Shown here in pieces: positions 3,710 to 44,982 of a stretch of 64,000 nucleotides of DNA. Below the pieces are notes generated by a model. It saw only the letters and a program-made list of their open reading frames with translations. It had not been told where the DNA came from and did no database searches. The translations under genes were made by a program, and so were the position numbers. The stretch lies in NCBI RefSeq assembly GCF_900184815.1, contig NZ_FXXQ01000004.1, positions 1 to 64,000 of the forward strand. Reading direction: 5' to 3'. The DNA comes from Boseongicola aestuarii (GTDB lineage: Bacteria > Pseudomonadota > Alphaproteobacteria > Rhodobacterales > Rhodobacteraceae). The stretch's first letter is position 1. Each line of letters starts with the position of its first letter.

Positions 3710-4243
3710 ATGTGGGACATCGGGAACTTCGTAGCTGATTGTCGGACTGCAATTGATAGGGATGGCACGCACAAATCAGTGGCGGATGTCGTGGGAAAGG
3801 CGATGTCTGACCCAGCCGCGGTGACGTCGGCGCTCGGCGAGCCAACCGAGAGTGGCATCATTCCTCTCTACAAGTCCTCGGACTTGACTATCGTCAACGT
3901 CATCTGGAAGCCCGGAATGACTATCATGCCTCACAATCACGAGATGTGGGCGGTCATAGGTATCTATGGCGGTCGCGAGGACAATATCTTCTGGCGCAGA
4001 GTCAAAGATGACCCTGAAGGGAGGATTGAAGCGGCCGGTGCACGTGCTTTGTCGACTGGAGATTTTGCGCCGCTCGGAAAGGATATCATCCATTCTGTCA
4101 CCAACCCGATACCGAAACTGACAGGTGCGATCCACGTCTATGGTGGAGACTTCTTTGAGGCGGAGAGAAGCGAATGGGACCCTGAAGTTCTGACTGAACA
4201 CGCCTATGATATGTCCAAAGTCAAAGCGATGTTCTCGGACTAA
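3710..4243 (+). CDS. cupin, cysteine-dioxygenase-like metal-binding protein
   Basis: A 177-residue single-domain cupin. The metal motif is HNHEMWAVIGIYGGRED near residues 73-90 (two His and a Glu), with a second His in DIIHSVTNP near 130, as in the COG5553/cysteine-dioxygenase-like double-stranded beta-helix group. The start at 3710 is set by AAAGGAGGG seven bases upstream; the open frame continues to 3530 but that part lies in the repeat. It stands alone on this strand, with the GYD gene divergent. The substrate cannot be read from the sequence; thiol oxidation is only a family-based guess. Confidence 0.85.
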   Translation: MWDIGNFVADCRTAIDRDGTHKSVADVVGKAMSDPAAVTSALGEPTESGIIPLYKSSDLTIVNVIWKPGMTIMPHNHEMWAVIGIYGGREDNIFWRRVKDDPEGRIEAAGARALSTGDFAPLGKDIIHSVTNPIPKLTGAIHVYGGDFFEAERSEWDPEVLTEHAYDMSKVKAMFSD

Positions 4244-4698
4244 GAGAACTGAGTTAAAATCTTTGAATTGTGAATGCGTGAATGTGGCTCCCCCCACCGG
4301 TGTCCAAGAATAACTTCCGAGGGATTTGACCCGCCCCCCTTTGCCTACGGCTAAAACTCTCCGCATATCGGCGCCAGAAGGGAGGTGTGCTGCCACTGAC
4401 GCCCTGCTAGGGGAAAACCAAATACCCGAACTTGGGAGTTAGTTTGCCAGCGGCAACACATATCTTAGATGCCGCATTCGTATTGTGTTGCCGTGACAAT
4501 TATCAATTCACTTTGGCAAAAGTAGATTGTCGGCGCCTGTGTCTGGCGTTCAGGGCGTGGTGACAGGGGGTTAGGGTTTTCTTAGGGTTCGCGTCCTAGT
4601 CTGTTTACGCCCAGGCAGTGTTGATGTTGAGAATGTTATTCCTTTGTCCAGCGGTAAGAATGGTGGGGAAGGTAAATACGCTTGGCAGGGAGTGGTAG
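4244..4698. other. non-coding spacer, possible decayed element
   Basis: No credible gene. Around 4285-4430 a GC-rich block (GGCTCCCCCCACCGG, CCGCCCCCC) contrasts with the AT-rich surroundings and could be the end of a vanished insertion sequence, but no inverted repeats or transposase fragment can be shown. Confidence 0.3.
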
Positions 4699-4845
4699 GT
4701 ATTAGTGTTCCGTTTCAGAACCGATGGAACGGTCGAAAACGGCTCTGACGGGTTCCAATTCGGAACCAAGCAGGGTCCTTGGGTTCTGGTTTGGAACCAT
4801 AGGAGAGGCTGACGGTTCCGTTTCAGAACCGCGTTCTGTTTTTGG
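4699..4845. repeat. palindrome-array repeat, copy B (best preserved)
   Basis: Four palindromes lie in 124 bases: 4707-4721 GTTCCGTTTCAGAAC, 4751-4767 GGTTCCAATTCGGAACC, 4782-4798 GGTTCTGGTTTGGAACC and 4814-4830 GGTTCCGTTTCAGAACC. Their centres are spaced 45, 31 and 32 bases, the last two close to three helical turns. The arms keep GGTTC/GAACC while the centre varies, as in protein-binding sites or RNA hairpins. It lies between the convergent cupin and universal stress genes. Confidence 0.85.
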
Positions 4846-4931
4846 GCGATTGATCGCTGGCAAATTCACATCATCTTGGTCGCGCGCAGAACTCGCGCAG
4901 CGTCAAATAGCAAGTGCTTTTAAGCGCGCAT

Positions 4932-5339
4932 TCAACGAACGACGTGAACTGCGCACTTTGCGTGGCGTACCACTCTGGATGCGGTGGAGCCAATGAGCAG
5001 GTCCTCGAAACCCGGACGATGCGAGGCCAATACGATGCAGTCGATTTCGTTTTCATCAGCATAGTTCAGAATGGCCTTTCCCGCATGACCGGATATCAGC
5101 TCTGGAACCGCGCCGGGTAACGCTTTGGCTGCATCGGCCAGCAATCGTTTGAGTTCATCGTGCTTTTTCTCGAGCAGATCTGTGGGCATTTCCATTCTTA
5201 CAAAGTTGGGTATTGCCTCAACAACATGCGCCACAGTGAATTTCGCGTTGTCATCTGCCAAGGCGCGAGCCACCTGAAACGACATTTGATTGTTATGTTT
5301 TTCGTCAAAAAGCACAGGAACAAGAATATTCTTATACAT
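4932..5339 (-). CDS. universal stress protein, UspA family
   Basis: A 135-residue single-domain protein: MYKNILVPVLFDE at the start, the Asp-containing nucleotide-binding first strand, SFQVARALADDN, and a C-terminal loop ASHRPGFEDLLIGSTASRVVRHAKCAVHVVR. The last part is a variant of the ATP-binding G-x2-G-x9-G(S/T) signature with the first glycines changed, so ATP binding is uncertain. A GGAGG site precedes the ATG. It is a monocistronic gene in the island, with a decayed palindrome array about 85 bases upstream. It probably has a stress or membrane-associated accessory role. Confidence 0.9.
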   Translation of the reverse strand: MYKNILVPVLFDEKHNNQMSFQVARALADDNAKFTVAHVVEAIPNFVRMEMPTDLLEKKHDELKRLLADAAKALPGAVPELISGHAGKAILNYADENEIDCIVLASHRPGFEDLLIGSTASRVVRHAKCAVHVVR

Positions 5340-5425
5340 CGCCTTGCCTCCAAATTTTCAGCCATCTCCGAGTAAGAGAACGATGTCAGATTCCATCAAT
5401 AGGTTCCTTGAGATACGTCAAGAGC

Positions 5426-5490
5426 GGTTTCCATGACCGTTTCCTTTCAGAACTGGGTTCATATCTGGGGTTGCTGGTTCTGGCAAAATT
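5426..5490. repeat. decayed palindrome-array repeat, copy C
   Basis: GACCGTTTCCTTTCAGAACTGGGTTC and, further on, CTGGTTCTGGCAAAATTGG resemble the 4814-4830 and 4782-4798 sites of copy B, but arms and spacing have drifted. It lies between the divergent universal stress and nuclease genes. Weak as a standalone call; it is listed because two clear copies lie within 2 kb. Confidence 0.4.
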
Positions 5491-5558
5491 GGCGGCTTTG
5501 CTTGCGTGGCTTACTCACAGAAGTCATGCATGAGGTAGTCGTTTCGAAGGACAGAGTT

Positions 5559-6203
5559 TTGAAGAAGCCAATTATCATTCTGCTCTTTCTTTTCGCGCTC
5601 GCTTCATCGGCTTATGCCCAAGTTATCGTAACAGATGGGGACACAATCGAGGTCGATGGCATTACGTATAGATTGAATGGCATTGACGCTCCGGAATACG
5701 GTCAGGTTTGCAACGGCCCGTCAAAAACGTGGGCGTGCGGCAAGGCAGCACTCGCGGCAATGGTAAATCTGGTCAAAGGGCAAAACGTTCGTTGTGAGCC
5801 CATTTCAGAAGACGGCTATGGTCGGACCATTGCCACCTGCTACGTAGGCAACCTCGACATTGGGGCGGAAATGGTTCGGAGCGGACTGGCGTGGGCATTT
5901 GTCCGATACTCTCGGGTATATGTAGCTGAAGAAGCCAAGGCTCGGGAGGCCAACACAGGCATCTGGATAGCTGCCACACAAGCGCCTTGGGAGTTCAGAG
6001 CCGCTAAATGGGAGGTGGCTAAACAAGACGCGCCAGCAGGCTGCCCAATAAAGGGAAACATATCCAATAATGGGCGCATTTATCATCCTCCCTGGTCTCC
6101 TTGGTACAGCCGCACGAAAGTGAGTGTCGAAAAAGGTGAGCGCTGGTTTTGCTCTGAGGCAGAAGCTGTGGAGGCTGGCTGGCGAGCGCCACGCTGGCAA
6201 TAA
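5559..6203 (+). CDS. secreted thermonuclease-family (SNase-like) nuclease
   Basis: It encodes a signal peptide (KKPIIILLFLFALASSAYA, cleavage before QVIVTDGDT), then a staphylococcal-nuclease fold: VTDGDTIEVDG, YRLNGIDAPEYGQ, CGKAALAAMVNLV, YGRTIATCYV (catalytic Arg) and GLAWAFVRYSRVYVAEEAKAREANTGIW. After about residue 155 comes a tail GNISNNGRIYHPPWSPWYSRTKVS...GERWFCSEAEAVEAGWRAPRW, like the small domain found after nucleases and micrococcal-type proteins. The TTG at 5559 is preferred because GAAGGA lies 7 bases upstream and it gives a compact signal peptide. An ATG at 5526, lacking such a site, would add 11 residues. It acts outside the cytoplasm on nucleic acid. Confidence 0.85.
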   Translation: MKKPIIILLFLFALASSAYAQVIVTDGDTIEVDGITYRLNGIDAPEYGQVCNGPSKTWACGKAALAAMVNLVKGQNVRCEPISEDGYGRTIATCYVGNLDIGAEMVRSGLAWAFVRYSRVYVAEEAKAREANTGIWIAATQAPWEFRAAKWEVAKQDAPAGCPIKGNISNNGRIYHPPWSPWYSRTKVSVEKGERWFCSEAEAVEAGWRAPRWQ

Positions 6204-41307: not shown

Positions 41308-42363
41308 GTGGCCGAGGTTCAGCTCCGTAATATCAACAAGCGCTGGGGCGATTTCGTGGGTGTCGAGAATTTCGACCTGACAATTGCCGATCGTGAATTC
41401 CTCGTTCTGCTCGGGCCTTCGGGATGCGGCAAGACGACGACGATGCGGATGATCGCGGGACTTGAGGATGCGACAGAGGGCGATATCCTGATCGACGGCA
41501 AGCGCGTCAACGATCTTGACCCGAAAGACCGCGACGTCGCGATGGTTTTTCAAAGCTACGCGCTCTATCCGAACCTCGACGTCTACGAGAATATCCGTTT
41601 CCCGCTGAAGGTCCGCAAGGTCGACCCGGCCACCCATGACGCTGCTGTCATGCGGGCTGCCGAAATGGTCGAACTGACCGAATTCCTCCACCGTCGCCCG
41701 GCGGAATTGTCCGGCGGTCAGCGCCAGCGCGTCGCGCTTGCCCGCGCCATCGTGCGCCAGCCGAACGTATTTCTGATGGACGAGCCACTGTCTAATCTCG
41801 ACGCGAAATTGCGCGTGTCGACCCGTGCGCAGATCAAGAACCTCAGCCACGAACTGAAGGTCACCACGGTTTACGTCACCCATGACCAGATCGAAGCCAT
41901 GACCCTTGCCGACCGCGTTGTCGTCATGTCGCGCGGAGTCGTGCAGCAGGTGGGAACACCCACCGAAATCTACGACAAACCCGCAAACACCTTCGTCGCC
42001 AGCTTCATCGGTAACCCCGCGATGTGTCTGATGGACGGGACGCTGACCAACGGTGTTTTCGAGGGCAAGAACGTCCGGATCGAGGGCCTTCCCACGCATC
42101 ACAATGGCCCCGTCACGCTTGGGTATCGGGCCGAAGACGCAAGTCTCGCCGACAGCGGCGCCATCACCGCGCCGATCTACTCGCTCGAACTTCTGGGCGA
42201 CGCGACGATGGTCACCGTCAGGGCCGGTGGTGCGATGGTGTCGATAAAGGCGCACAAGGATTACCGGGCGGAAATCGGAGATCCCGTGACCGCAGATATC
42301 CCCGCCGGCATCTGCCATATCTTCGATGCGGCGTCCGGAAAACGCCTCGACGTTGCGGTGTAA
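41308..42363 (+). CDS. ABC transporter ATP-binding protein (UgpC/MalK type)
   Basis: A 351-residue protein: Walker A GPSGCGKTTTMRMIAGLE near 37, Q-loop FQSYALYPNLDVYENIRFPLKVR, signature LSGGQRQRVALARAIVRQP near 135, Walker B VFLMDEPLSNLDAKLR and the switch His in VTHDQIEAMTLADR, then a C-terminal MOP/TOBE regulatory domain from about 240. GTG start with CAGGGGGAA upstream. It energises the CUT1 importer whose other parts are on the opposite strand. Confidence 0.95.
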   Translation: MAEVQLRNINKRWGDFVGVENFDLTIADREFLVLLGPSGCGKTTTMRMIAGLEDATEGDILIDGKRVNDLDPKDRDVAMVFQSYALYPNLDVYENIRFPLKVRKVDPATHDAAVMRAAEMVELTEFLHRRPAELSGGQRQRVALARAIVRQPNVFLMDEPLSNLDAKLRVSTRAQIKNLSHELKVTTVYVTHDQIEAMTLADRVVVMSRGVVQQVGTPTEIYDKPANTFVASFIGNPAMCLMDGTLTNGVFEGKNVRIEGLPTHHNGPVTLGYRAEDASLADSGAITAPIYSLELLGDATMVTVRAGGAMVSIKAHKDYRAEIGDPVTADIPAGICHIFDAASGKRLDVAV

Positions 42364-42401: not shown

Positions 42402-42500
42402 ATGACCACATACGACTTCATAGTGGTCGGCGACGGGTCCGCAGGTTGCGCAGTTGCGGTCCAACTCGCGACGCACTTCAATTGCGAGGACGCAACATGA
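42402..42500 (+). pseudogene. N-terminal stub of a GMC-family oxidoreductase
   Basis: A 32-codon frame encoding MTTYDFIVVGDGSAGCAVA... then VQLATHFNCEDAT and a stop. This is the FAD-binding start of GMC (choline/glucose dehydrogenase-type) enzymes, D-(F/Y)-I-V-V-G-G-G-S-A-G-x-V-x-A, with one Gly changed to Asp. The rest of the roughly 530-residue enzyme is missing. The stub runs directly into the SnoaL gene, whose ATG overlaps its stop (ATGA) and whose ribosome site lies in it, so the stub may persist as a leader peptide. Confidence 0.75.
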
Positions 42501-42982
42501 GCCTTGATCCCAAATCCGCAGAAACCCTCGCTGTCGTGCGCCGCATGGAAGCGGGGCTTGCGGCAAACGAAAACGACATGACGCAATACTTCCACGAGGA
42601 TTTCCTGTGGCGCGGCAATCAGGGCTGCGGCACGAAAAATGGCGTCGAGGCCTTCCGGAACAACTGGCAGCTTCCCTTCCGTGCCGCCTTCACAGACCGC
42701 GATTACATCACCGAAAAGTTCATGGCCGACGGCGAATGGGCCTCGTGTTTCGGCCACATCGAGGCCACGCATTCCGGCACCTTCATGGGCATCCCCGCCA
42801 CCGGAAAGCGCGTGCGCATCCCCTATATGGATTTCTGGCGTGTCGAGGATGGCCGGATTGTCGACAATCCCGTTTCTGTCGATTTTGCAAGTGTTCTCAT
42901 GCAGTTAGGTGTCGATATCTTTGACGGAAAGGGCTGGGAACACTACGACAGTGGCGCCGCCACGCCCCCGAAACCCGAATGA
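42497..42982 (+). CDS. single SnoaL-like (NTF2-fold) protein
   Basis: A 161-residue protein: MTQYFHEDFLWRGNQGCGTKNGVEAFRNNWQLPFRAAFTDRDYITEKFMADGEWASCFGHIEATHSGTFMGIPATGKRVRIPYMDFWRVEDGRIVDNPVSVDFASVLMQLGVDIFD, a full SnoaL fold with the usual G-I-P-x-T-G-K-x-V and W-R-V-x-D-G-R-I-V blocks. The ATG at 42497 has GAGGA upstream; the longer frame from 42446 lies in the GMC stub. Its FRAAF-(T/K)-DR block recurs in the 36805 protein. It is followed after 25 bases by the HisD-like gene. Confidence 0.88.
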   Translation: MSLDPKSAETLAVVRRMEAGLAANENDMTQYFHEDFLWRGNQGCGTKNGVEAFRNNWQLPFRAAFTDRDYITEKFMADGEWASCFGHIEATHSGTFMGIPATGKRVRIPYMDFWRVEDGRIVDNPVSVDFASVLMQLGVDIFDGKGWEHYDSGAATPPKPE

Positions 42983-43007: not shown

Positions 43008-44318
43008 ATGACCATCACACATTTGAAATCCGGTAAGCCCGAAAGCGAGCGTGCCGAAGATGACGCCAAGGTCCGCGCCATTGTCGAGACCACTTTGAAA
43101 GACATCGAAACACGTGGTGATACCGCCATTCGTGAACTCTCGGCCAAATTCGACAAATACGAGCCCCCAAGCTTCCGCCTCACCGCTTCCGAGATCGAGG
43201 CCGCGGTGCAAAAGGTCAGCGCGCGCGACATGGACGATATCAAGTTTGCCCAATCGCAGATCCGCACCTTTGCTCAGGCCCAACGCGCTTCGATGACCGA
43301 TATCGAGGTCGAAACCCTGCCCGGTGTGATCCTCGGCCATAGAAACATCCCCGTGCAGTCCGTCGGGTGCTACGTCCCCGGCGGCAAATTCCCGATGGTC
43401 GCCTCCGCGCACATGTCCGTCCTGACCGCGTCGGTTGCGGGCGTGCCGCGCATCATCGCCTCTGCGCCGCCGCAGAACGGCGCGCCGCACCCGGCCATCG
43501 TCGCGGCCATGCACATGGGTGGCGCACATGAAATCTACGTTCTCGGCGGTATGCAGGCCGTCGGAGCCATGGCGATCGGCACCGAAACCATCGACCCCGT
43601 CCACATGCTTGTCGGCCCTGGCAACGCGTTCGTAGCGGAAGCAAAACGCCAGCTTTACGGCCGCGTAGGCATCGACCTGTTCGCCGGCCCGACCGAAACC
43701 ATGGTCATCGCCGACCACTCAGTCGACGCCGAACTTTGCGCCACCGACCTTCTTGGACAGGCCGAACACGGCTACAATTCGCCTGCTGTTCTTCTGACAA
43801 ATTCCGAAAAACTCGCTCGCGAAACTCTGGCCGAGATCGACCGCATTCTCGACATTCTGCCGACCGCCGAAACCGCCCGGACGTCGTGGAACGACTACGG
43901 CGAGGTCATCGTCTGCGACACCTACGACGAGATGCTGGAGGTCGCCAACGACATCGCCTCCGAGCACGTTCAGGTCATGACCGACCGCGACAACTGGTTC
44001 CTTGAAAACATGCACAGCTACGGCGCCTTGTTCCTCGGGCCCCGCACGAATGTTGCCAACGGCGACAAGGTGATCGGCACAAACCACACGCTGCCCACCA
44101 AAAAGGCGGGTCGATATACCGGTGGTCTTTGGGTGGGTAAGTTCCTGAAAACCCACAGCTATCAGCGCATAACCACGGACGAGGCCGCCACCACGATCGG
44201 TGAATACGGCTCGCGGCTGTGTATGCTTGAAGGCTTTGTCGGCCACGCCGAACAATGCAATATCCGCGTGCGCCGCTACGGCGGCAAAAACGTCGCTTAT
44301 GGAAAGGCGGCCGAGTAA
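43008..44318 (+). CDS. HisD-family NAD-dependent dehydrogenase, HpsN (sulfopropanediol 3-dehydrogenase)-like
   Basis: A 436-residue protein with the histidinol-dehydrogenase catalytic set: Gln251 and His254 (GQAEHG, zinc), Glu319-His320 (ASEHVQV, base), Asp353, His360 (GTNHTLPT) and His413 ([13 protein letters not shown], zinc). The family oxidises a primary alcohol to a carboxylate in two NAD steps. Its place in a LacI/ABC/SDR catabolic cluster and the C-terminal RVRRYGG resemble HpsN, which converts R-2,3-dihydroxypropane-1-sulfonate to sulfolactate, rather than biosynthetic HisD. That choice is an inference; the real substrate may be another polyol. Confidence 0.85.
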
Positions 44319-44322
44319 CACC

Positions 44323-44982
44323 ATGCCCAGACGCACCCCCGGCACCTATACTGGACTGGAAGACTTGGGCCGTGTGCGCCTGTCGCCCTACTTTTACATG
44401 CGCGATTTCCTCTATTCCGAGATCGGCAATTTCTTCGGCAAACCGAACCTGCCTGTTGACCCCGACCTTGCCATCGCCGCGGGCAAGAAGCTTTGCGCGG
44501 CCATTCTCGATCCCATGACCGAAACCTTTGGCCCTCTCCATATCCGCTCGTCCTATCGCTCGCCCGACCTCAACCACTTTGGCGCGACGGAAGTGAAACC
44601 GCAGAAATGCGCCCGAAACGAGGCCAATTACGCCGGTCACATCTGGGACATTCGCGACGCAAAGGGCCGCATGGGAGCAACCGCGTCAATCGCCGTGCCG
44701 TGGTTCGCCGACCAGTTCGAAAAGGGTCGCGACTGGCGCGATCTGGCATGGTGGATTCACGACCATCTGGACTACCACCAGCTTTATTTCTTCCCCAAAC
44801 TCGCGGCCTTCAACGTCACTTGGCGGCAGGCCCCCGAACGTTCGATCCTGAGTTACGTCGCGCCTCGGGGAAAACTCTACGCCGACGGGCAAATACCGCC
44901 CGAGCCTGCGAAAACCCGAAAAGCCCGCTACGCCGATTTCCCGCCCTTCAAGGGCATCTCCTACCCAAAGGTTGCCGCGTGA
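44323..44982 (+). CDS. unknown protein, M15 peptidase-like motif order
   Basis: A 219-residue protein. LSPYFYMRDFLYSEI opens it; IRSSYRSPDLNHFGATEV then GHIWDIRDAKGRMG (about 92-130) have the order S-x-YRSP...H-x2-D seen in M15/hedgehog-type metal peptidases, and HDHLDYHQLYFFPKLAAFNVTW (about 150-172) could give the third ligand. The usual S-x-H-x(6)-D spacing is not preserved, so the fold is only suspected. The ATG at 44323 lies 4 bases after the dehydrogenase stop; the end overlaps the SDR start. It has no signal peptide. Confidence 0.65.
   Translation: MPRRTPGTYTGLEDLGRVRLSPYFYMRDFLYSEIGNFFGKPNLPVDPDLAIAAGKKLCAAILDPMTETFGPLHIRSSYRSPDLNHFGATEVKPQKCARNEANYAGHIWDIRDAKGRMGATASIAVPWFADQFEKGRDWRDLAWWIHDHLDYHQLYFFPKLAAFNVTWRQAPERSILSYVAPRGKLYADGQIPPEPAKTRKARYADFPPFKGISYPKVAA

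Follow-up and report, generated by a model that had tools for sequence, protein, structure and literature searches.

A probable remnant of a GMC oxidoreductase gene in an uptake cluster of Boseongicola aestuarii and probable repeated loss of the enzyme gene among relatives

Results

The window analysed here is a stretch of 64,000 nucleotides from the B. aestuarii genome. It carries a cluster whose plus strand encodes, in order, an ABC transporter ATPase, a short stub ORF, a SnoaL-like protein, a histidinol-dehydrogenase-like dehydrogenase (HisD), an SDR, a LacI-type regulator, a double-SnoaL protein, a cupin, an M19 dipeptidase and a MetE-like protein. A further double-SnoaL protein, two permeases and a solute-binding protein are encoded on the minus strand. 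Permease, solute-binding protein and LacI are designations taken from our own reading of the sequence, not from a library scan. The stub lies between the ATPase gene, with its stop at 42363, and the SnoaL gene, with its ATG at 42497-42499 (Table 1). Its 32 codons plus stop, 42402-42500, are translated as MTTYDFIVVGDGSAGCAVAVQLATHFNCEDAT*, and stop and SnoaL start overlap in an ATGA at 42497-42500. A GAGGA motif in the tail of the stub ends 6 nt before the SnoaL ATG. Further downstream, between HisD and SDR, an ORF of 219 residues at 44323-44982 (MPRRTPGTYTGLEDLGRV...) found no Pfam match at E<=0.001. The congeneric locus L034 has a similar ORF at the same place, and a double-SnoaL gene occupies this position in L172, another locus from the genus.

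Table 1. Features at the stub locus, in window coordinates.
Feature	Position	Strand	Evidence
ABC transporter ATPase, gene 5′ of the relic	41308..42363	+	PF00005 E 5.2e-34; same neighbour in orthologous clusters
Probable GMC oxidoreductase relic, 32-codon ORF	42402..42500	+	translation, HMM match, tail match
Part probably derived from a GMC N-terminus, about 24 codons, GxGxxG motif kept	42402..42473	+	HMM match codons 2-25; best split after codon 22-25
Part probably derived from a GMC C-terminus (HFNCEDAT*, cf. QFIAEDAA*)	42474..42500	+	tail score vs GMC C-termini
GAGGA, SnoaL ribosome-binding site (placed by position), in the relic's tail	42486..42490	+	same place in intact GMC of L035
SnoaL-like gene, start inside the relic (ATGA overlap)	42497..42982	+	PF07366 E 1.8e-20
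Histidinol-dehydrogenase-like gene (HisD) of the cluster	43008..44318	+	PF00815 E 2.5e-134; TIGR00069 above cut-off

Both ends of the stub resemble a GMC oxidoreductase. We combined 22 GMC genes from related clusters in a hidden Markov model, which scored 25.8 bits over codons 2-25 (E 5.5e-10, three sequences searched), and the FAD/ADP-binding motif GxGxxG is present as GDGSAG at codons 10-15. The last nine residues were compared with GMC C-termini; only 2 of the 1626 ORF ends from both strands of the window, the stub's own frame included, scored as well. Against the 11 of 15 GMC proteins that have a usable N-terminus (the other four count for tails only), the best division between head and tail fell after codon 22-25. 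Pfam yielded only sub-threshold FAD/Rossmann matches to the stub, the best being PF01266 with E 0.016, and no match to GMC_oxred_N (PF00732) at E<=1. Since Pfam thus fails to assign the stub, the family call rests on the orthologous clusters. A preliminary description made from the window alone had taken the ORF for a GMC stub in front of SnoaL that keeps the FAD-binding start and supplies ribosome site and overlap to the next gene. The model match, the intact orthologues described below and the positions of GDGSAG, GAGGA and ATGA bear this out. What that description missed is the tail: as the final residues correspond to a GMC C-terminus, the stub points to an internal deletion and not to a truncation.

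The intact GMC genes of related clusters comprise 491 to 517 codons, the shortest (L087, 491) reaching a contig end, and roughly 470 codons are therefore missing from the stub. Because its head corresponds to the N-terminus and its tail to the C-terminus of such a gene, the deletion was in frame. By comparison with the intact genes, a single event of about 1.4 kb would have fused some 24 N-terminal codons to the last 8-9. The catalytic His/Asn region of GMC enzymes falls in the C-terminal domain PF05199, which is missing from the stub apart from these final 8-9 codons. The enzyme is lost, as neither the substrate-binding domain nor the C-terminal catalytic region is left and most of the FAD domain is absent too.

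An intact counterpart is found in L035, from an uncultured member of the Rhodobacteraceae, where a GMC gene of 500 codons (4502-6004) lies between ATPase and SnoaL. Its product matches PF00732 (E 4e-34) and PF05199 (E 2.9e-29), and its C-terminal end, ...AAGGATGCCGCATGA, overlaps the SnoaL start by the same ATGA. SnoaL and HisD of this locus are 81% and 89% identical to those of the window. The nearest solved structures to the L035 enzyme are a chloramphenicol-inactivating oxidoreductase, alcohol oxidases and choline oxidase or dehydrogenase; its scores stay far under the NCBIfam cut-offs for choline dehydrogenase and MftG. The order ATPase-GMC-SnoaL recurs in L053, L153 and L154. This supports an ancestral cluster with an intact GMC gene, which the preliminary description had proposed together with a search of orthologous clusters for an intact gene in this slot. 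In L155, L156, L160 and L161 the order is ATPase-GMC-HisD, and no SnoaL gene separates GMC from HisD; as these loci illustrate, GMC and SnoaL often fill the slot one without the other. Of 18 GMC regions drawn from the 19 GMC-positive genomes of the family (G317 was left out), 17 have the gene immediately 5′ of SnoaL or HisD, and L170 has it elsewhere in the cluster.

SnoaL/HisD clusters of this kind extend to SUP05/Thioglobus, and more distant sets of SnoaL, double-SnoaL and transporter genes occur in MAGs of Chloroflexi (both within L069-L086 and L095-L113). A plasmid collection gave only partial matches, covering at most about 64% of the query among the best 12 of 2154.

Relatives of the window display further stages of erosion in the same slot. 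In the congeneric G004 (L172), with an ATPase and a HisD 94% identical to those of the window, a degenerate GMC remnant of 77 codons begins with MITYDFIVVGAGTVGCAIDGQLAAQ; a second part of it, around GCAWSDVAPT, matches GMC weakly. ATPase and HisD of this locus are 332 nt apart (3776-4107), and this interval contains no match to SnoaL. In G003 (L034), likewise of the genus and with a SnoaL identity of 88%, only an 86-nt gap separates ATPase and SnoaL; in the frame that we read, it ends in a GMC-like tail, ISKDAS*, overlapping SnoaL. The gaps of L043, L046 and L048 measure 57, 47 and 98 nt and all end in AGGACGC(A/C)GC-ATGA. In these three loci, which belong to the same clade, the GMC tail alone is kept, as SnoaL ribosome site. 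A separate truncated GMC fragment of about 63 aligned residues directly precedes SnoaL at 5715-5946 of L090, a Hasllibacter MAG.

The surviving 3′ end is a regular feature of the longer gaps. We found 59 GMC-less clusters and set aside two with HisD between ATPase and SnoaL. In the remaining 57, with the ATPase directly before SnoaL, the GMC-tail motif AGGA[C/T]GC ends all five gaps longer than 41 nt (the window, L034, L043, L046 and L048) and none of the 52 others. Fisher's exact test gave 2.4e-7 for the 57 clusters and 3.8e-7 for the 52 left without identical HisD, values that serve as a guide only, as the rows share ancestry. Where GMC sequence immediately precedes SnoaL, the motif likewise occurs, in 8 of 15 loci; the tally includes the fragment of L090 and counts one locus double, as L134 and L169. 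On the HisD tree, the five long-gap clusters fall in one clade with L035. The simplest account is therefore a GMC-bearing ancestor in whose descendants the gene was lost several times while its 3′ end was left in place. The last codons would have stayed because they carry the ribosome-binding site and the ATGA overlap of SnoaL; the position of both elements is given by the sequence, and selection would be the force behind their retention.

Elsewhere in the genome of B. aestuarii no GMC orthologue was found, only paralogues of 36-39% identity, so a relocation of the orthologue within the genome was rejected. The nearest of the three paralogues, which is the one that was scanned, lies at C39:68919-70490 (L171, 6923-8494); it is a choline dehydrogenase (BetA) according to NCBIfam and is encoded on the same contig about 5 kb past the end of the window. 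The missing orthologue also bears on the question whether the strain in truth has an intact gene and the deletion arose in assembly or sequencing. The species is represented by a single assembly in 69 contigs, which leaves some room for such an error. Against it, the assembly is 99.96% complete and still devoid of the orthologue, the joined ends have diverged from those of relatives, and sister species show related but different erosion. We regard an artefact as very improbable.

Across the family, a GMC gene similar to that of L035 (E<=1e-140) was detected in 19 of 394 genomes and the HisD of the cluster (E<=1e-160) in 192. All 19 GMC genomes are among the latter, as judged by matching the two lists by eye. 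At the same threshold, GMC is absent from 173 of the 192 HisD-bearing genomes (90%). As the GMC-less form is the commoner one, GMC looks like an accessory component. This distribution gives no support to the further suggestion of the preliminary description that a first oxidation step may have been lost or replaced here. The GMC enzyme may have carried out a first oxidation or may have widened the range of substrates. The HisD and SDR dehydrogenases are still present in the cluster. A replacement enzyme in the GMC slot was considered and none was seen; the slot is closed in most relatives.

The rarity of GMC in the family and the missing Pfam assignment would also fit a cluster that never held a GMC gene in this genus, the stub being a chance ORF or a fragment from elsewhere. 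However, both of its ends match GMC at the place where relatives hold the gene, and sister species L172 has a longer GMC remnant at the same position. A chance ORF was rejected on the matches at both ends, and the explanation as a whole is scarcely credible.

The GMC state was further mapped on a HisD tree of 103 rows (108 less four duplicates and L100), of which 102 were scored and L173 was not. At least 13 changes of state are required. The correlation between GMC and HisD divergence is weak (Mantel r 0.24, a value reached in 129 of 5000 permutations), so GMC may have been gained or exchanged in some lineages. Together with the number of state changes, this leaves a strictly vertical history of GMC unsupported.

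Discussion

The stub is probably the residue of a GMC gene of about 500 codons that once lay between ATPase and SnoaL and had its middle deleted; we put the probability of this reading at roughly 93%, based on sequence comparison. GMC itself looks accessory: its loss has been frequent, and some lineages may have regained it. From the pattern among relatives we infer repeated loss of this enzyme from an otherwise conserved uptake/catabolic cluster. In the open-licence PMC papers searched, we found nothing on GMC together with SnoaL or HisD clusters in roseobacters or Rhodobacteraceae.

Is the stub more than debris? On positional grounds, its tail is needed as the ribosome site of SnoaL. A role of the whole stub in translational coupling of SnoaL is possible. 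The relic may have been kept as a short leader cistron, whose translation would open a hairpin over the SnoaL ribosome site, with restart at the ATGA coupling SnoaL to the upstream genes. The ATGA overlap, the GAGGA inside the stub and the deletion in frame accord with such a function. However, both the overlap and the ribosome site are a legacy of intact GMC genes, and a deletion is in frame by chance in one of three cases.

Structure predictions are similarly divided. In the region from −90 to +35, the AGGA core was predicted to be unpaired to 7%, compared with 69% on average after shuffling of the first 70 nt; 5% of 300 shuffled sequences were as low. On the other hand, shuffled sequences fold as stably as the hairpin region (z −0.68), and accessibility of AGGA rises only to 25% once the upstream part is cleared.

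Substitutions between the stub and the L172 remnant also point both ways. The first 10 codons differ by one amino-acid and four silent changes, as would suit a leader peptide under constraint, whereas codons 11-25 differ by eight amino-acid and two silent changes. The nine amino-acid changes in 25 codons exceed every one of the 737 windows of 25 codons from ATPase and HisD (maximum 7). Over all 25 codons, dN is 0.20, dS 1.42 and dN/dS 0.14, values to which divergence older than the deletion may contribute. The divergence as a whole is not neutral-looking, which counts against a plain relic. Intact GMC N-termini of more distant relatives differ by dN of 0.21-0.24 (0.04 in one close pair), so part of the divergence of the stub may predate the deletion. 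Moreover, L034, the nearest relative with SnoaL, lacks the stub. Weighing these points, we consider a leader cistron unlikely. A stricter version, in which the remains of the deleted enzyme gene act as a translational switch, appears more doubtful still: the head and tail joined by the deletion would form a hairpin over the SnoaL ribosome site, and SnoaL synthesis would depend on translation of the 32-codon leader.

The internally deleted GMC gene is an ordinary example of a recurrent kind of gene loss, and its value lies in the clean decay series to which it belongs. One slot of one cluster presents the loss of an enzyme gene by stages: intact, 77 degenerate codons, 32 codons, tail only and nothing. 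What tends to survive is the 3′ end, with the ribosome site for the next gene. Natural strains with and without GMC also provide a resource for finding the substrate of the widespread SnoaL/HisD/SDR uptake cluster.

Compared with the GMC family (PF00732 plus PF05199), the relic shares the dinucleotide-binding start with GxGxxG and a tail like the C-termini of its orthologues, whereas about 94% of the protein is deleted and a working GMC enzyme is ruled out. Translationally coupled cistrons can share an ATGA stop/start overlap. The stub has the same 4-base overlap and a ribosome site within the upstream frame, and coupling is putative here; the arrangement differs in that often, in 32 of the 57 GMC-less clusters, it is the ATPase gene itself that overlaps SnoaL (gap below 0). 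The locus comes close to an operon pseudogene formed by internal deletion: the ORF was apparently shortened by one deletion, the neighbours are intact and sister species contain other products of erosion. Unlike such a pseudogene, the relic still has an uninterrupted reading frame and contains both the ribosome site of the downstream gene and the overlap with its start.
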